NCBI GenBank assembly: GCA_009784575.1
Contig: WRBK01000001.1
Coordinates: forward strand, 1-64,000
Source of the DNA: Defluviitaleaceae bacterium
GTDB taxonomy: Bacteria > Bacillota > Clostridia > Lachnospirales > WRAX01
DNA length: 64,000 bases
Direction: 5' to 3'
Shown piece by piece: positions 20,738 through 26,557 of the stretch (position 1 is the first letter of the stretch; the number at the start of each line of letters is the position of its first letter). Position numbers and translations under genes: made by a program. The notes beneath the pieces are model-generated. The model was given only the letters and a program-made list of their open reading frames with translations. It was not told the origin of the DNA and did no database searches.

Positions 20738-20845
20738 AACGATATAAAATCTGTAGATGAAAGATGTGATTGAATGAGTTGCAATGATATTACGCTACAA
20801 AAATTCACTGTTGTATTTTCAAATGATATATGTTATAATACTAGT

Positions 20846-20982
20846 GATCAAGCGATGGCATAGTCCAAGTGTCAGTATTCTTGGACTATGCCATGCAGCC
20901 GGGCCCTTTGAGGGCAGCAGCGGTACGAGAAATCGGACAGCCTGCGGGACACCTTCCCGCAGGCTGTCCGATTTTTTATATA
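20846..20982 (+). promoter_or_regulatory. NiCo (czcD)-like riboswitch with terminator
   Basis: The segment holds a 13-base perfect stem (20857-20869 with 20880-20892), then ATGCAGCCGGGC (20893-20904), which matches the conserved core of the NiCo riboswitch as I remember it. CAGCGG and GGGACA follow, as in that class. The 3' part is a 19-base perfect terminator stem (20931-20949 with 20955-20973) with a T-run. NiCo RNAs bind Co2+, Ni2+ and reportedly Fe2+, and relieve termination of metal-efflux genes. The next gene is a metal P-type ATPase. I have not aligned it to a covariance model. Confidence 0.82.
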
Positions 20983-21011: not shown

Positions 21012-23042
21012 ATGAAAAAAGTTTTTGTGGCAATGAAAACCAATTATGAGCTAGTTTTGGCTCTCTTGTGCGGCGCGCTCATCCTTTGTGCATGGCTGTT
21101 ACAGACATGGGGGGTCTTGTATAGTGGCATTGCGCTATATGTTTTAGCCTATTTGGTTGGTGGCTTTGTTAAGACAAGGGAAGGCTTTTTGGAGGCAATT
21201 AAGGAAAAGGACTTGAATGTAGACATTTTGATGATGCTTGCGGCTATTGGTGCTGCCATCATTGGCTATTGGGGAGAGGGCGCAATGCTTATCTTTATCT
21301 TCTCTTTAGCGGGAGCAATGGAAACCTATACTTTCAACAAATCTCATAAGGAAATATCTGCCCTTATGGATTTGCAGCCAGAAACCGCAATAAGGCTAGT
21401 TGATGGCAAAGAAGAAGAGGTTGCTGTAGGAGATTTACATATAGGCGACATCATTTTGGTAAAGCCAGGCGAGCGCATCCCTGCCGATGGCTCTATATCC
21501 TTAGGCGAAACCAATGTGGACGAATCCGCGATAACAGGCGAATCTATACCAAATGAAAAGGGTGTTGGTGATGAAGTTTTTGCATCTACAGTAAATATGC
21601 GCGGCTCTATACAAGTGAAGATTAACAAGCCAAGTGACCAGACCCTGTTTCAAAGAATTATACGCCTAGTGCAAAATGCCCAAAGCGAAAAATCTCCATC
21701 CCAACTGCTTATAGAGAGATTTGAAGGACCATACGCAAAAATAGTTATTGCTGTTTCTACCGCCGTTATCCTTTTGGGCTATTTTGCCTTTGGCATGGAG
21801 CTTTCTGCGGCTGTTTACCGCGGCTTGGTGCTTTTGGTCGTTGCATCACCTTGTGCTCTTGTGGCATCTATCACGCCCGCCACATTATCTGCAATCTCAA
21901 ATGGCGCACGCAGCGGCATACTGTTTAAAGGTGGTGTTCAGTTAGAGAGATTAGCAAGCCTAAAGGTAATTGCTTTTGATAAAACAGGCACACTTACAAA
22001 GGGCAAGCCTGTGGTTACAGATATTTATGCTAAAAAGGGAATGACCGAAAAAGAGCTGATGGAGATAACATCTTCTATTGAGAGCCACTCTACCCATCCG
22101 CTTGCTGATGCCATCATTAACCACGCAAAGAGGCAATATGATATAACGGTGACAGCACCTACACTCATAGAAAATGTAGTTGGCTTTGGCGTAAAAGGTG
22201 AATATGACGGCAAGAGCTACAAAATAGGCAAGGCAGATTTTGTGAGCGATGCAGCCGAAGATTTTAATGACAATGCGGCAAGTCGCTTGCAAAAAGAAGG
22301 CAAGACCATTGTATTTATTGGCGATGATGAAGGCATAGTTGGTCTAATTGCTTTGAAAGACACAATAAGACCCGAAACAATAGATGCCATAGCAAGCCTT
22401 AAAGAGATTGGCATAGAATCTGCCATGATTACTGGCGATAACGAGCAAACCGCAAAGGTTATTGCTGAAGAAAGTGGGCTTACAAATTATTATGCATCAT
22501 GCCTGCCAGAAACAAAGGTGGATGTTGTAAAAGAGCTGAAGGAAAAATATCAGACTGTAGCCATGGTGGGCGATGGCATAAATGATGCCCCTGCCCTTGC
22601 TACAGCCGATATTGGTATAGCCATGGGCGAAGGCACGGATGTAGCCCTTGAAACAGCCGATGTTGTGCTTATGAAAAACAATCTTGGTTCTTTATCAAAA
22701 GCAGTGGGTCTATCCAAGCGCTTAAAGGTTGTTACAAGGCAAAATATCATCTTTGCCATATCGATTATGATGTTATTTGCTGTGGCAAACTTTATAACGG
22801 CTGTGCCTATACCTTTGGCGGTTATTGCGCATGAAGGTAGTACAATCCTTGTTATACTAAATGGCTTGAGACTTTTGAGGAGTAAAAAGGCAAAAGTTAT
22901 GGACAAAAGACATGTTGAAGCTTTGGGCATTGATTCATGCGAGGGTGATTTTTACAAGACATGCACAATGAGCATAGAAAAGTGCGCAAAAGTAGCACAA
23001 GGAGGGGTTTGCCCTTTGCAACCTGTAGCTAATCCAAGTTAA
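21012..23042 (+). CDS. P1B-4-type metal-export ATPase (Co/Fe/Zn type, ZosA/PfeT-like)
   Basis: A 676-residue heavy-metal P-type ATPase. The metal-site motif in membrane helix 4 is SPC (279-281) instead of CPC, and HEGST occurs at 607-611; these mark the P1B-4 group that exports Fe(II), Co(II) or Zn(II). DKTGT with the phosphorylated Asp is at 323, TGES is present, and GDGINDAPAL is intact. There is no N-terminal metal-binding domain. The C-terminal tail is Cys-rich (about 645-670). A NiCo-like riboswitch precedes it, which supports Co/Ni or Fe efflux. ATG with GAGGTGAT upstream. Confidence 0.92.
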   Translation: MKKVFVAMKTNYELVLALLCGALILCAWLLQTWGVLYSGIALYVLAYLVGGFVKTREGFLEAIKEKDLNVDILMMLAAIGAAIIGYWGEGAMLIFIFSLAGAMETYTFNKSHKEISALMDLQPETAIRLVDGKEEEVAVGDLHIGDIILVKPGERIPADGSISLGETNVDESAITGESIPNEKGVGDEVFASTVNMRGSIQVKINKPSDQTLFQRIIRLVQNAQSEKSPSQLLIERFEGPYAKIVIAVSTAVILLGYFAFGMELSAAVYRGLVLLVVASPCALVASITPATLSAISNGARSGILFKGGVQLERLASLKVIAFDKTGTLTKGKPVVTDIYAKKGMTEKELMEITSSIESHSTHPLADAIINHAKRQYDITVTAPTLIENVVGFGVKGEYDGKSYKIGKADFVSDAAEDFNDNAASRLQKEGKTIVFIGDDEGIVGLIALKDTIRPETIDAIASLKEIGIESAMITGDNEQTAKVIAEESGLTNYYASCLPETKVDVVKELKEKYQTVAMVGDGINDAPALATADIGIAMGEGTDVALETADVVLMKNNLGSLSKAVGLSKRLKVVTRQNIIFAISIMMLFAVANFITAVPIPLAVIAHEGSTILVILNGLRLLRSKKAKVMDKRHVEALGIDSCEGDFYKTCTMSIEKCAKVAQGGVCPLQPVANPS

Positions 23043-23953: not shown

Positions 23954-24041
23954 AAAAATTTATGAAATAAACAGACTTTTCAAAAATGATTACGTATGAT
24001 ATAATGATATGGTGAATGAGTGGTTTAAGGTGGTGACTTTG

Positions 24042-24638
24042 TTGAACTATGCTAAAATGACGGATTATGAGCTGGTTGCAGCTTGTATTGAGGGCGAGAA
24101 AAATAGCTTTGAGGAGCTTGTTTCGCGCTATAAAAATTTGGTTTATTCTGTCGTTTTGCGTATGGTGACAGATAAAGAGGATGCAAACGACCTTGCCCAA
24201 GAAGTTTTTATCAAGATTTATCGCAATCTGGAGAAATACAGCGAAGAATATAAATTTTCTACATGGACAATAAGAATCGCCACAAACCACGTCATAGATT
24301 GGCGCAGGAAGAAAAAATATGAAACTGTAAGCATAGATGATGAAGAAAATACTGTTGCGGGCGGCTTGATGGCTAATAGCGGTGCATCGCCAGAGGATGA
24401 GTACATAGCGGATGAACAAAGCCGCATGTTAAGGGACTTGGTGGCAGGGCTGCCAGATATTTATAGAGTACCCATTGTGCTGTATCACGAGCAGGGACTT
24501 AGTTATCAAGAAATATCTGAGATAACGGGCGAGCCGCTGTCAAAGGTAAAAAACCGCATATTTAGGGGGCGCAAGCTGCTAAAGGAAAGCTTGATGAATT
24601 TAAGGAGAGGTGGTGAAAGCTATGGTGTCGGCATGTGA
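24042..24638 (+). CDS. ECF-type RNA polymerase sigma factor
   Basis: Region 2 reads DLAQEVFIKIYRNLEKY and STWTIRIATNHVIDWRRKKK; region 4 reads LSYQEISEITGEPLSKVKNRIFRGR. There is no region 1 or 3, so this is an ECF factor of about 198 residues. I choose TTG 24042, which has GGTGGTGA upstream; ATG 24009 is an alternative. The next gene overlaps its end and encodes a zinc-type anti-sigma, so activity should be released by an envelope signal. Confidence 0.9.
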   Translation: MNYAKMTDYELVAACIEGEKNSFEELVSRYKNLVYSVVLRMVTDKEDANDLAQEVFIKIYRNLEKYSEEYKFSTWTIRIATNHVIDWRRKKKYETVSIDDEENTVAGGLMANSGASPEDEYIADEQSRMLRDLVAGLPDIYRVPIVLYHEQGLSYQEISEITGEPLSKVKNRIFRGRKLLKESLMNLRRGGESYGVGM

Positions 24639-25239
24639 GAAATACGGTGAATTGATGATGAAGTACATGGATGGGCGGCTTGATGATTTTGAGCAAATGA
24701 ATCTGGATAAGCACATGGAAGCTTGCGAAGCTTGCCGCGAAGACTTTGCTATGTATCAAGAGATGCTGGCTAGCTTTGACCATAGCAATGAAGAAATAAT
24801 CGAAGCTCCAGAGGGCTTTGCCGCTGCCGTAATGGAAAAGGTAGAGGATATAAACATTTATTTCCCAACAAAGATACGCAATGACGGCAAAGTGCTAGAT
24901 AGCGTTATAATGGCTGTTTGGGGATTCTTGGTGGCTACATTTGTTATGGGTAGCGCACTTTTGCTCTATAACGAGGCTATTTTTGAATGGCTAACTGCCA
25001 ATGGTCTGGGCGTTATTGTTGCAGCTTTGCAACCCATTGTGGATTTTGCCTTTGGTATAAGTAGCGCAATAGGTGGGTACACATCTATTGCTTCTGGCTG
25101 GTTTGGTACGAATATTAGTGACTTTGCGATAATTGCCCTAATTATCTTTGTTGGGCTGGTAGCTGTGCAGTTCTATATGTCGCCAAAATACGCTCAGGTA
25201 GCGGCACAGATTAAGAAAAGACGCAGGAAGATAATGTAG
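24622..25239 (+). CDS. Membrane anti-sigma factor with zf-HC2-type N-terminus
   Basis: The 205-residue protein begins with a zinc-binding segment HMEACEACRED (pattern HxxxCxxC), which holds ECF sigma factors. Two hydrophobic segments follow (around residues 95-115 and 165-185), and the C-terminus is a basic KKRRRK tail. It overlaps the sigma gene by 17 bases. The ATG at 24622 follows AAGGAGAGG; a GTG at 24613 is too close to it. What it senses is unknown. Confidence 0.85.
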   Translation: MVSACEKYGELMMKYMDGRLDDFEQMNLDKHMEACEACREDFAMYQEMLASFDHSNEEIIEAPEGFAAAVMEKVEDINIYFPTKIRNDGKVLDSVIMAVWGFLVATFVMGSALLLYNEAIFEWLTANGLGVIVAALQPIVDFAFGISSAIGGYTSIASGWFGTNISDFAIIALIIFVGLVAVQFYMSPKYAQVAAQIKKRRRKIM

Positions 25240-25246
25240 AAATAGT

Positions 25247-25275
25247 TTGACATTGTTTGTAATGCATGGTACAAT
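25247..25275 (+). promoter_or_regulatory. SigA-type promoter upstream of tsaD
   Basis: TTGACA (25247-25252), 17 bases, TACAAT (25270-25275). It fires toward tsaD 270 bases away and across the opposite-strand small ORF at 25363-25464, so its RNA would be antisense to that ORF. Confidence 0.75.
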
Positions 25276-25326
25276 GTAGATATATTCTTAGACATCGAAC
25301 CACCAGAAAATTTCAAATGGGAAAAC

Positions 25327-25357
25327 AATACCCTAGGGCCTCTATCCCTAGGGTATT
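25327..25357 (-). terminator. Bidirectional hairpin, terminator of the small ORF
   Basis: A 12-base perfect inverted repeat (AATACCCTAGGG and complement, 7-base loop). On the minus strand it lies 5 bases after the stop of the small ORF and is followed by GTTTTCCC. On the plus strand no T-run follows. Confidence 0.65.
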
Positions 25358-25362
25358 GAACT

Positions 25363-25464
25363 TTAGAAGAACAAGTCTCTCAAGTTTTTAAGTATAACCA
25401 AGATTACTTTAATGGCTTTCGCCATTTTATAAGCTTTGGCTATGTACTCTCGTTGCTTAGACAT
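25363..25464 (-). CDS. Candidate 33-residue basic small protein
   Basis: The ORF has a near-perfect ribosome site (AAGGAGGTGGGAAG before ATG) and is followed by a hairpin. The product has a Lys/Arg-rich N-terminal half and a hydrophobic patch (AIKVILVILKNL) with basic residues, ending RDLFF. I recognise no family. The size, ribosome site, terminator and an opposing promoter resemble type I toxin loci, but the hydrophobic stretch is short. It may equally be an amphipathic regulatory peptide. Confidence 0.5.
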   Translation of the reverse strand: MSKQREYIAKAYKMAKAIKVILVILKNLRDLFF

Positions 25465-25543
25465 CTTCCCACCTCCTTCTTTCAGTTGGGATGAAGTTAG
25501 CATAACATAATATGACAATTTTTGCAAGAAGAGGTAAATATCA

Positions 25544-26557
25544 ATGAATAAAATCAACATACTAGGCATAGAAACCTCCTGCGACGAAACCAGCGCATCC
25601 GTGGTGGCTGATGGGCGCGAGGTACTTTCCAACGTAATACATTCGCAGATAATGGAGCATAGAAAATATGGCGGTGTTGTGCCTGAAATAGCATCGCGCC
25701 GCCATATTGTTAAGATTGATGATGTGGTATCCGCCGCCCTTGATGAGGCAGGGCTTGCACTATCTGATATTTCCGCTGTGGCTGTAACACATGGACCAGG
25801 GCTTGTTGGTGCGCTTTTGGTCGGGCTTAATTTTGCAAAAGCTATGGCATATGCGGCGGGCTTGCCGCTTGTTGGTGTGCATCATATAGCAGGGCATATC
25901 GCATCCAATTATCTTGACAATGCCGCATGGCAACCGCCTTTTATCGCCCTTGTTGTTTCTGGCGGGCATACGCAGCTAATACATGTGCGGGATTATGATG
26001 ATTTCGTTATTATGGGCAAATCTCTTGATGATGCAGCTGGCGAGGCATACGATAAAGTGGCGCGTTGCCTTGGATTGCCCTATCCTGGCGGGGTGCAGAT
26101 AGATAGATTGGCGCAAGAGGGCAATGCCTCGGCTATAGACTTTCCGCGCGTGTTGCTTGGGGCTGGCAGCCTTGATTTTAGCTTTAGCGGGCTAAAATCC
26201 GCTGTGCTTAATTATCTTAATAGTGCGAAAATGGCGGAGCGCGAAGTATCCCATGCCGATGTTGCCGCTTCTTTTCAGCAGGCTGTGATTGAGGTACTAA
26301 CAAAAAAAGCCATGATGGCTTGTGAGATAGCAGGTTGCAATCAATTGGCAATAGCGGGCGGCGTTGCGGCAAATTCTGCATTGCGTGCCGCGCTGGAGCA
26401 GGCATGTTCAAAGAACAATATCACGTTAAATATACCAAAACCAATTTATTGTACAGATAACGCCGCGATGATAGCTGCCGCGGGGTATTATGACCATATC
26501 AAGGGGCGGCACGCGGGGCTTGTGCTTAATGCTGTGCCGTCGTTGGCGTTGTCGTGA
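25544..26557 (+). CDS. tsaD: tRNA N6-threonylcarbamoyladenosine transferase TsaD
   Basis: Transfers the threonylcarbamoyl group to A37 of ANN-decoding tRNAs, working with TsaB and TsaE. ASKHA fold: LGIETSCDETSASVV at the start, the metal-binding HHIAGH near residue 110, VVSGGHTQL and GGVAANSALR. 337 residues, as usual. ATG with GAGGT upstream. Its partners are not in this window. Confidence 0.96.
   Translation: MNKINILGIETSCDETSASVVADGREVLSNVIHSQIMEHRKYGGVVPEIASRRHIVKIDDVVSAALDEAGLALSDISAVAVTHGPGLVGALLVGLNFAKAMAYAAGLPLVGVHHIAGHIASNYLDNAAWQPPFIALVVSGGHTQLIHVRDYDDFVIMGKSLDDAAGEAYDKVARCLGLPYPGGVQIDRLAQEGNASAIDFPRVLLGAGSLDFSFSGLKSAVLNYLNSAKMAEREVSHADVAASFQQAVIEVLTKKAMMACEIAGCNQLAIAGGVAANSALRAALEQACSKNNITLNIPKPIYCTDNAAMIAAAGYYDHIKGRHAGLVLNAVPSLALS

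Follow-up and report, generated by a model that had tools for sequence, protein, structure and literature searches.

A chromosomal locus of a Defluviitaleaceae bacterium with the features of a type I toxin-antitoxin module and par/Fst-like regulation

The window (the whole 64,000-nt stretch of Defluviitaleaceae DNA analysed) contains a very small minus-strand ORF crossed by a promoter-like site on the other strand, and the question raised by this locus is whether the arrangement is a type I toxin-antitoxin module and, if so, how it relates to the systems already described. Our reading, to which we give a probability of about 0.8 on the basis of sequence comparison, is that this is a type I toxin-antitoxin module on the chromosome, regulated in the manner of par/Fst, with a toxin from an undescribed family. 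The ORF is very probably a self-toxin gene restrained by an antisense RNA from the opposite strand, and one of several matched pairs of this kind in gut Clostridia.

The ORF, its relatives and its neighbours

The ORF (25363–25464, minus strand) starts with an ATG at 25464, has its stop end at 25363 and contains 33 codons for the toxin-like peptide MSKQREYIAKAYKMAKAIKVILVILKNLRDLFF, which was characterised by its paralogues, alignment and predicted helix. The Shine-Dalgarno sequence GAAGGAGGTG (25470–25479, minus strand) lies 5 nt upstream of the ATG, as expected from the first-pass annotation, which had proposed a 33-residue ORF with a good ribosome site. One neighbour is a sigma-70-like/zf-HC2 anti-sigma pair (24009–25239, plus strand), the sigma-70-like gene of which we read as ECF type, and the other flank is tsaD (25544–26557, plus strand).

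A protein search of 96 relatives with the window peptide found five places in its own genome, including that of the window, together with places in close relatives, and a 12-row profile run on all 16 genomes of the taxonomic family added G013 C77, G004 C131, G004 C148 and G011 C2. The peptide family comprised 17 copies, of which 15 were intact and 2 decayed, spread over 8 of the 16 genomes, with 5 copies in G000 (the window's own genome), 2 each in G001, G004, G013, G014 (in tandem) and G015, and 1 each in G002 and G011. Matches considered as chance or too weak were left out (G005, G008, G010, G002 C12, G015 C35 and G000 C6:43205), and so were the order-level matches from the search of 96 relatives, of which G016, G061, G027 and G091 were inspected. 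The paralogues and the conservation in relatives on which the annotation had staked its candidate were both found, with five copies in the own genome and a family beyond it, and the opposite outcome of no conservation was not obtained. A chance ORF had been considered and was dropped after the protein search found relatives of the peptide. Variability was highest at the third codon position (0.606 vs 0.452 and 0.319 at the other two), which is a coding signal, and at the level of sequence a conserved ORF is established.

The decayed copy G000_C6 has neither a start codon nor the strong ribosome site; in the decayed copy G011_C2 the ORF misses the usual family end and runs on through the terminator. 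The decayed toxin ORFs (L064:569-670 and L110:475-541) keep the convergent promoter. Two of the G000 copies (L059 and L060) were located within 500 nt of contig ends (C2 and C41), so further copies in this genome may sit in assembly gaps. Only 2 of 30 tsaD loci examined had a convincing peptide match nearby, and these form an orthologous pair (G000 and G001).

A DNA search of the own genome returned the window copy only, and the protein search returned five; the cassettes share peptide and architecture and little DNA. This bears on the reading of the locus as a multicopy intergenic repeat element in which the ORF is chance or degenerate and the hairpin and repeats serve DNA mobility, as the occurrence of several intergenic copies per genome, two of them in tandem in G014, might suggest. 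We consider it highly improbable, given that peptide and architecture are conserved with little DNA, that the codon positions are biased and that no transposase occurs among the 20 scanned neighbours. Those 20 genes lie beside 13 cassette regions; 16 had a Pfam match at E up to 1e-5, none of them to a phage, plasmid or transposase family. The four neighbours with no Pfam match at this threshold encode 343–568 aa (L212:4558-6264, L214:570-1601, L216:5118-6611 and L216:7295-8767).

The order-wide profile search (246 genomes) gave nothing convincing outside the family: 26 genomes had a match at E up to 0.1, 8 of them in the family, and the best other match had an E of 0.007, the weaker order-level matches not being inspected singly. 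The class-wide search (391 genomes) gave no strong match outside the family; one match in G324 (E 0.002) was set aside as chance, its stretch resembling, on a reading of the DNA, part of a longer coding region. No match was obtained at E up to 10 by tblastn with the window peptide against phage and plasmid records. A DNA pattern representing the end of the ORF plus the terminator matched 82 stretches in the genome collection, and among the 80 listed, hmmsearch identified L116, L125, L152, L175 and L196 as true members. L116, L125 and L175 came from Defluviitaleaceae MAGs and L152 from a Clostridiales MAG, while L196 is identical in sequence to the G002 copy. Ten of the matches listed were viral-contig stretches, and no family member was present in them. 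Two chassis patterns run over the 16 family genomes revealed no clear cassette with another peptide, the extra matches being judged from match starts only and control patterns giving similar stray matches.

Carriers included the Defluviitaleaceae genomes Lab288P1bin92 (G013) and Co191P1bin84 (G015) and the Clostridiales genome Pmx449_bin8 (G001). The consulted part of PMC7024585 gives Lab288 and Co191 as codes for two termite hosts, Labiotermes labralis and Cornitermes sp. Judged from these sequences, the family appears confined, as encountered here, to Defluviitaleaceae-like, partly termite-gut, Clostridia. Listings and abstract openings of open-access papers described neither the peptide family nor any type I module from these bacteria.

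Promoters, terminator and leader of the cassette

Read on the toxin strand, the cassette consists of a promoter-like site, leader, ORF, terminator stem, start-region repeat (in most copies) and a reversed convergent promoter, and this order, the same in all 17 copies, is established at the level of sequence. The putative antitoxin promoter, TTGACA-17-TACAAT with TG before the -10 box (25247–25275, plus strand), was located by the promoter-like-site scan with 11/12 matches. It was the only site scoring 11/12, and so the best, among 27 promoter-like sites in 10 kb, a total no higher than in shuffles (mean 24.8), in agreement with the strong plus-strand promoter across the ORF that had been annotated. 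A convergent TTGACA-17-TATAAT-like site, chosen as the best site in its region, was established in 17/17 copies; its -35 box was TTGACA in 15 and TTGACG in 2. In the region 25239–25544 of the plus strand, the antitoxin promoter begins 8 nt past the anti-sigma stop, and just one plus-strand promoter-like site (at least 9/12) lies between it and tsaD, overlapping the antitoxin promoter (25257–25286). Expression of tsaD may rely on read-through over the toxin gene.

On the minus strand, best-site scoring placed a toxin promoter-like site, TTGCAA-17-TATGCT (25499–25527), with 8/12 matches. This site was scorable in 16 of the 17 copies (one contig ends too soon) and was very weak (4/12) in G002_C9. 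The antitoxin site outscored the toxin site in 13 of the 16 scorable copies, and the toxin site outscored the antitoxin site in three modules.

The annotated terminator hairpin was recovered after the stop as a 13-bp perfect stem with a 7-nt loop (25326–25358), which may serve both strands, and a stem of 11–17 bp was present at the same place in 17/17 copies. The automatic terminator scan did not list this hairpin because its T run is short. A weak plus-strand T run (TTGAACTTT) leaves room for read-through of the antisense RNA. The predicted antitoxin RNA (25282–25366, plus strand), with start and end both by prediction, would be about 80–85 nt long and gave a fold z of -3.3. Permissive Rfam scans of the cassettes returned sub-gathering matches only, none of them to a recognised type I toxin-antitoxin RNA family.

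The leader can form a hairpin, TCCCA...TGGGA (25467–25491, minus strand), able to sequester the Shine-Dalgarno sequence, as indicated by compensatory changes and an arm-swap test. Within the 16 aligned leaders (decayed G000_C6 left out), AGGAGGTG was invariant. Of 80 cells, 87.5% kept the pairing of the 5-bp stem, against 82.7% for shuffles and 30–58% for slid versions; changes on both sides occurred in four cells, a count that would be lowered by the MAFFT register, which seems off in a few rows. Swapping arms among the 15 intact leaders weakened pairing, with only 2 of 20,000 permutations as good, and co-variation of the leader arms is thereby established. A stem of the kind that sequesters the Shine-Dalgarno sequence in the par/Fst plan is thus present in the family, except that it is absent in G004_C131 and is not the minimum free energy structure of the full-length window mRNA. 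In the fold of that mRNA (z -4.6), the ribosome site was partly paired with the 3' tail, not in the local hairpin. The toxin-side promoter-like site, the direct repeat, the leader hairpin and the sharing of the terminator hairpin by both strands go beyond the first-pass annotation.

Start-region repeat and cognate pairing

A direct repeat links the start region of the ORF to the antisense RNA. Copy 1 (25456–25491, minus strand), detected by alignment and a permutation test, covers the leader, ribosome site and first codons, and copy 2 (25287–25322, minus strand), detected by alignment and shuffles, lies within the 5' part of the predicted antisense RNA. To score the repeat, the 56 nt surrounding each start were aligned locally to the region from the terminator to the convergent promoter. 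The summed own-locus score was 567 vs 297.6 (sd 23.3) for permuted partners, and none of 20,000 permutations reached 567. The own partner gave the top score in its column for 16 of 17 copies and in its row for 13 of 17, and in 15 of the 17, the window copy included, the repeat exceeded all 500 shuffles of the region. It was not significant in G004_C131 (32/500 shuffles) and in the decayed G000_C6 (29/500). The window score of 28 was also reached by 3 of the 931 window ORFs (at least 20 aa, both strands), so the window repeat alone is unconvincing and the force of the evidence lies in the set of loci.

Cognate RNA duplex energies showed the same behaviour, summing to -677.5 vs -406.7 (sd 24.3) for permuted partners (0/20,000). 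For the four intact G000 modules, cognate duplexes ranged from -36.6 to -44.4 kcal/mol and non-cognate duplexes from -12.2 to -28.9 kcal/mol. In the orthologous copies beside tsaD (G000 and G001), first codons and repeats differ together. The tandem cassettes of G014 (L056:425-908, 382 nt apart) have terminators that are alike and first codons that differ and match different repeats. Across the loci, co-variation of the repeat with its own start region is established, and the predicted antisense RNA has, in silico, complementarity to the toxin mRNA that would be suited to block translation. G004_C131 is the exception, with an intact ORF and a poor toxin promoter site, and with neither a significant repeat nor a leader stem. 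The two decayed copies differ, one having a repeat near the chance level and the other a strong one. Since the strong one, in G011_C2, still scores 47, loss of the repeat is not simply tied to decay of the toxin.

The layout of a type I toxin locus, as proposed by the annotation, is supported by the paralogous cassettes, the co-varying repeat, the leader able to sequester the Shine-Dalgarno sequence and the convergent site in 17/17 copies. Small ORF and antisense promoter occur together at one locus at the sequence level, the promoter-like site in 17/17 copies and the intact ORF in 15/17. In the mechanism we propose, the weaker minus-strand promoter would give an mRNA of about 175 nt, to be translated into the 33-aa cationic amphipathic helical peptide, and the stronger plus-strand promoter at the opposite end would give an antisense RNA of about 80 nt. 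Complementarity between the two RNAs would be complete across the terminator hairpin they share and partial at the direct repeats; there the antisense RNA, on pairing in the cell, would cover the ribosome site along with the start and first codons. Folding of the leader over the ribosome site would give the antisense RNA time to bind. Should the antisense RNA be exhausted, through silencing of its promoter or loss of the locus, the peptide would be made and would damage the cell's own membrane. Modules in one genome should not cross-silence, since each paralogue has its own matched repeat.

The points counted against the toxin-antitoxin reading are a peptide less hydrophobic than usual for type I toxins, the G004_C131 copy, the strong repeat in decayed G011_C2, the weak T run, the three reversed promoter rankings and the mRNA fold.

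The peptide and its comparison with known systems

AlphaFold predicted a single helix for the window peptide (residues 2–32, pLDDT 90.3). Net charges of the members ranged from +3 to +7 and maximal hydrophobic moments from 0.49 to 0.76; a 19-residue stretch above a Kyte-Doolittle mean of 1.6 was absent in 14 of 15 members and present in 1. K16 and K26 (window peptide numbering) were invariant across the 15 members, and charge was found in the N-terminal part, with a mostly hydrophobic C-terminus. From its sequence and the predicted structure, the peptide is best described as a cationic amphipathic helix rather than a membrane span, as the annotation had judged. No family in Pfam and NCBIfam fits the window peptide, and NCBIfam, PHROGs and PADLOC gave nothing beyond weak matches, each by one member. 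Weak matches set aside were one to PSMalpha (Pfam; 1 of 15 members, not the window peptide, E 0.0094), one of another member to an unrelated viral family (E 0.0025) and one to a solved structure. The first two were ascribed to chance or to shared helical character, the third to chance.

The most likely action of the peptide is membrane damage, as judged from analogous type I toxins; TisB and SprA1, for example, are described in the consulted part of PMC8309996 as small amphipathic helices that disturb the membrane. They offer a plausible model for the action here, with the differences that no sequence relation was found and that the TisB antitoxin acts in trans, according to the same part of that source. 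The same helical character, together with the single weak PSMalpha match, would also suit a useful small protein (an exported antimicrobial, a PSM-like surfactant or a membrane regulator) whose dose is limited by antisense RNA, and SprA1, itself a type I toxin, acts on bacteria when supplied from outside (PMC8309996, same part). This reading is unlikely: a dedicated exporter was not evident among the 20 neighbours, which include an unspecified ABC ATPase (L218) and a MatE transporter (L219), and several orthogonal copies with their own antisense partners, together with decayed copies, fit toxin-antitoxin modules better.

The closest regulatory likeness is to par_pAD1 (Fst, RNA I/RNA II). In the sections of PMC7472228 drawn on here, par_pAD1 has a 33-aa toxin, convergent promoters and a shared terminator at which RNA contact starts; the toxin start is sequestered by direct repeats and the Shine-Dalgarno sequence by a stem. 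The locus resembles it in each of toxin length, convergent promoter-like sites, shared terminator hairpin and sequestering stem, and in direct repeats that place antisense complementarity over the toxin start. The par/Fst combination of convergent promoters, bidirectional terminator and paired repeats was seen in the family, the repeat being non-significant in G004_C131 and decayed G000_C6. A U-turn candidate (YUNR) in the toxin-side terminator loop was found in only 2 of 17 copies, not including the window copy; the terminator-loop U-turn is not universal among par homologues (PMC7472228, same sections).

Unlike Fst, the peptide is unrelated by sequence, has no PxxxG motif, carries its charge at the N-terminus and is amphipathic rather than clearly membrane-spanning. 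The Pfam Fst profile matched 0 of 12 members at E up to 10 and 0 of 15 at E up to 1, the NCBIfam toxin models matched 0 of 12 at E up to 10, and PxxxG or PxxxC was found in 0 of 15; the charged C-terminal tail of the Fst type was not seen either. PF13955 was found in 0 of the 16 family genomes by a search of low sensitivity (control 1 of 14 genomes, Lactococcus lactis, below the cut-off). That the locus is simply a par homologue, its toxin a true Fst/Ldr member diverged past recognition, is suggested by the architecture and 33-aa length it has in common with par_pAD1 as described in that source; the failure of the Fst and NCBIfam toxin profiles, the missing PF13955 and PxxxG/PxxxC, and a charged N-terminal part with hydrophobic C-terminus, the reverse of Fst, make this quite improbable, somewhat more so than a useful small protein. 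With the par features present bar the U-turn and those of the Fst family missing, we claim regulation as in par with high confidence and make no claim of Fst membership.

The type I toxins of C. difficile and B. subtilis, according to the part of PMC6563280 consulted, carry a transmembrane domain, end in a charged C-terminus and lie mostly in prophage regions. The locus is like TxpA/RatA, BsrG/SR4 and relatives, as presented there, in its small peptide, antisense RNA antitoxin and several copies per genome. It is unlike them in having no evident membrane span and in that the scanned neighbours are not phage genes; the paired direct-repeat plan is that described for par.

As to origin, we suggest tentatively, and at somewhat less than even odds, that a separate toxin family, confined to a single lineage of gut Clostridia, acquired the full par plan, or evolved it independently, around a cationic amphipathic peptide instead of a membrane-spanning one and expanded into several mutually orthogonal modules per chromosome. 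Regulatory plan and toxin, joined in the Fst family, would then come apart here, and to find this plan with an unrelated peptide suggests that it is capable of reuse or reinvention. With four of their number in a single genome, the 15 intact loci form a set for testing antisense specificity against a changing start region, to which they are suited because the repeat must follow the codons to be covered.

Two other RNA features were observed. A hairpin with a GAAA loop (GGCGAAAGCC in the window) lies within the coding region (25366–25464) and in some other copies, with apparent compensatory changes in a few, judged by eye; the idea that it is a second RNA element was rejected, as by eye only a minority of copies have one. 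The Rfam gathering scan of the window returned a single element, a NiCo riboswitch (20835–20954, plus strand; 40.1 bits, gathering 37), located just upstream of a P-type ATPase gene (21012–23042).
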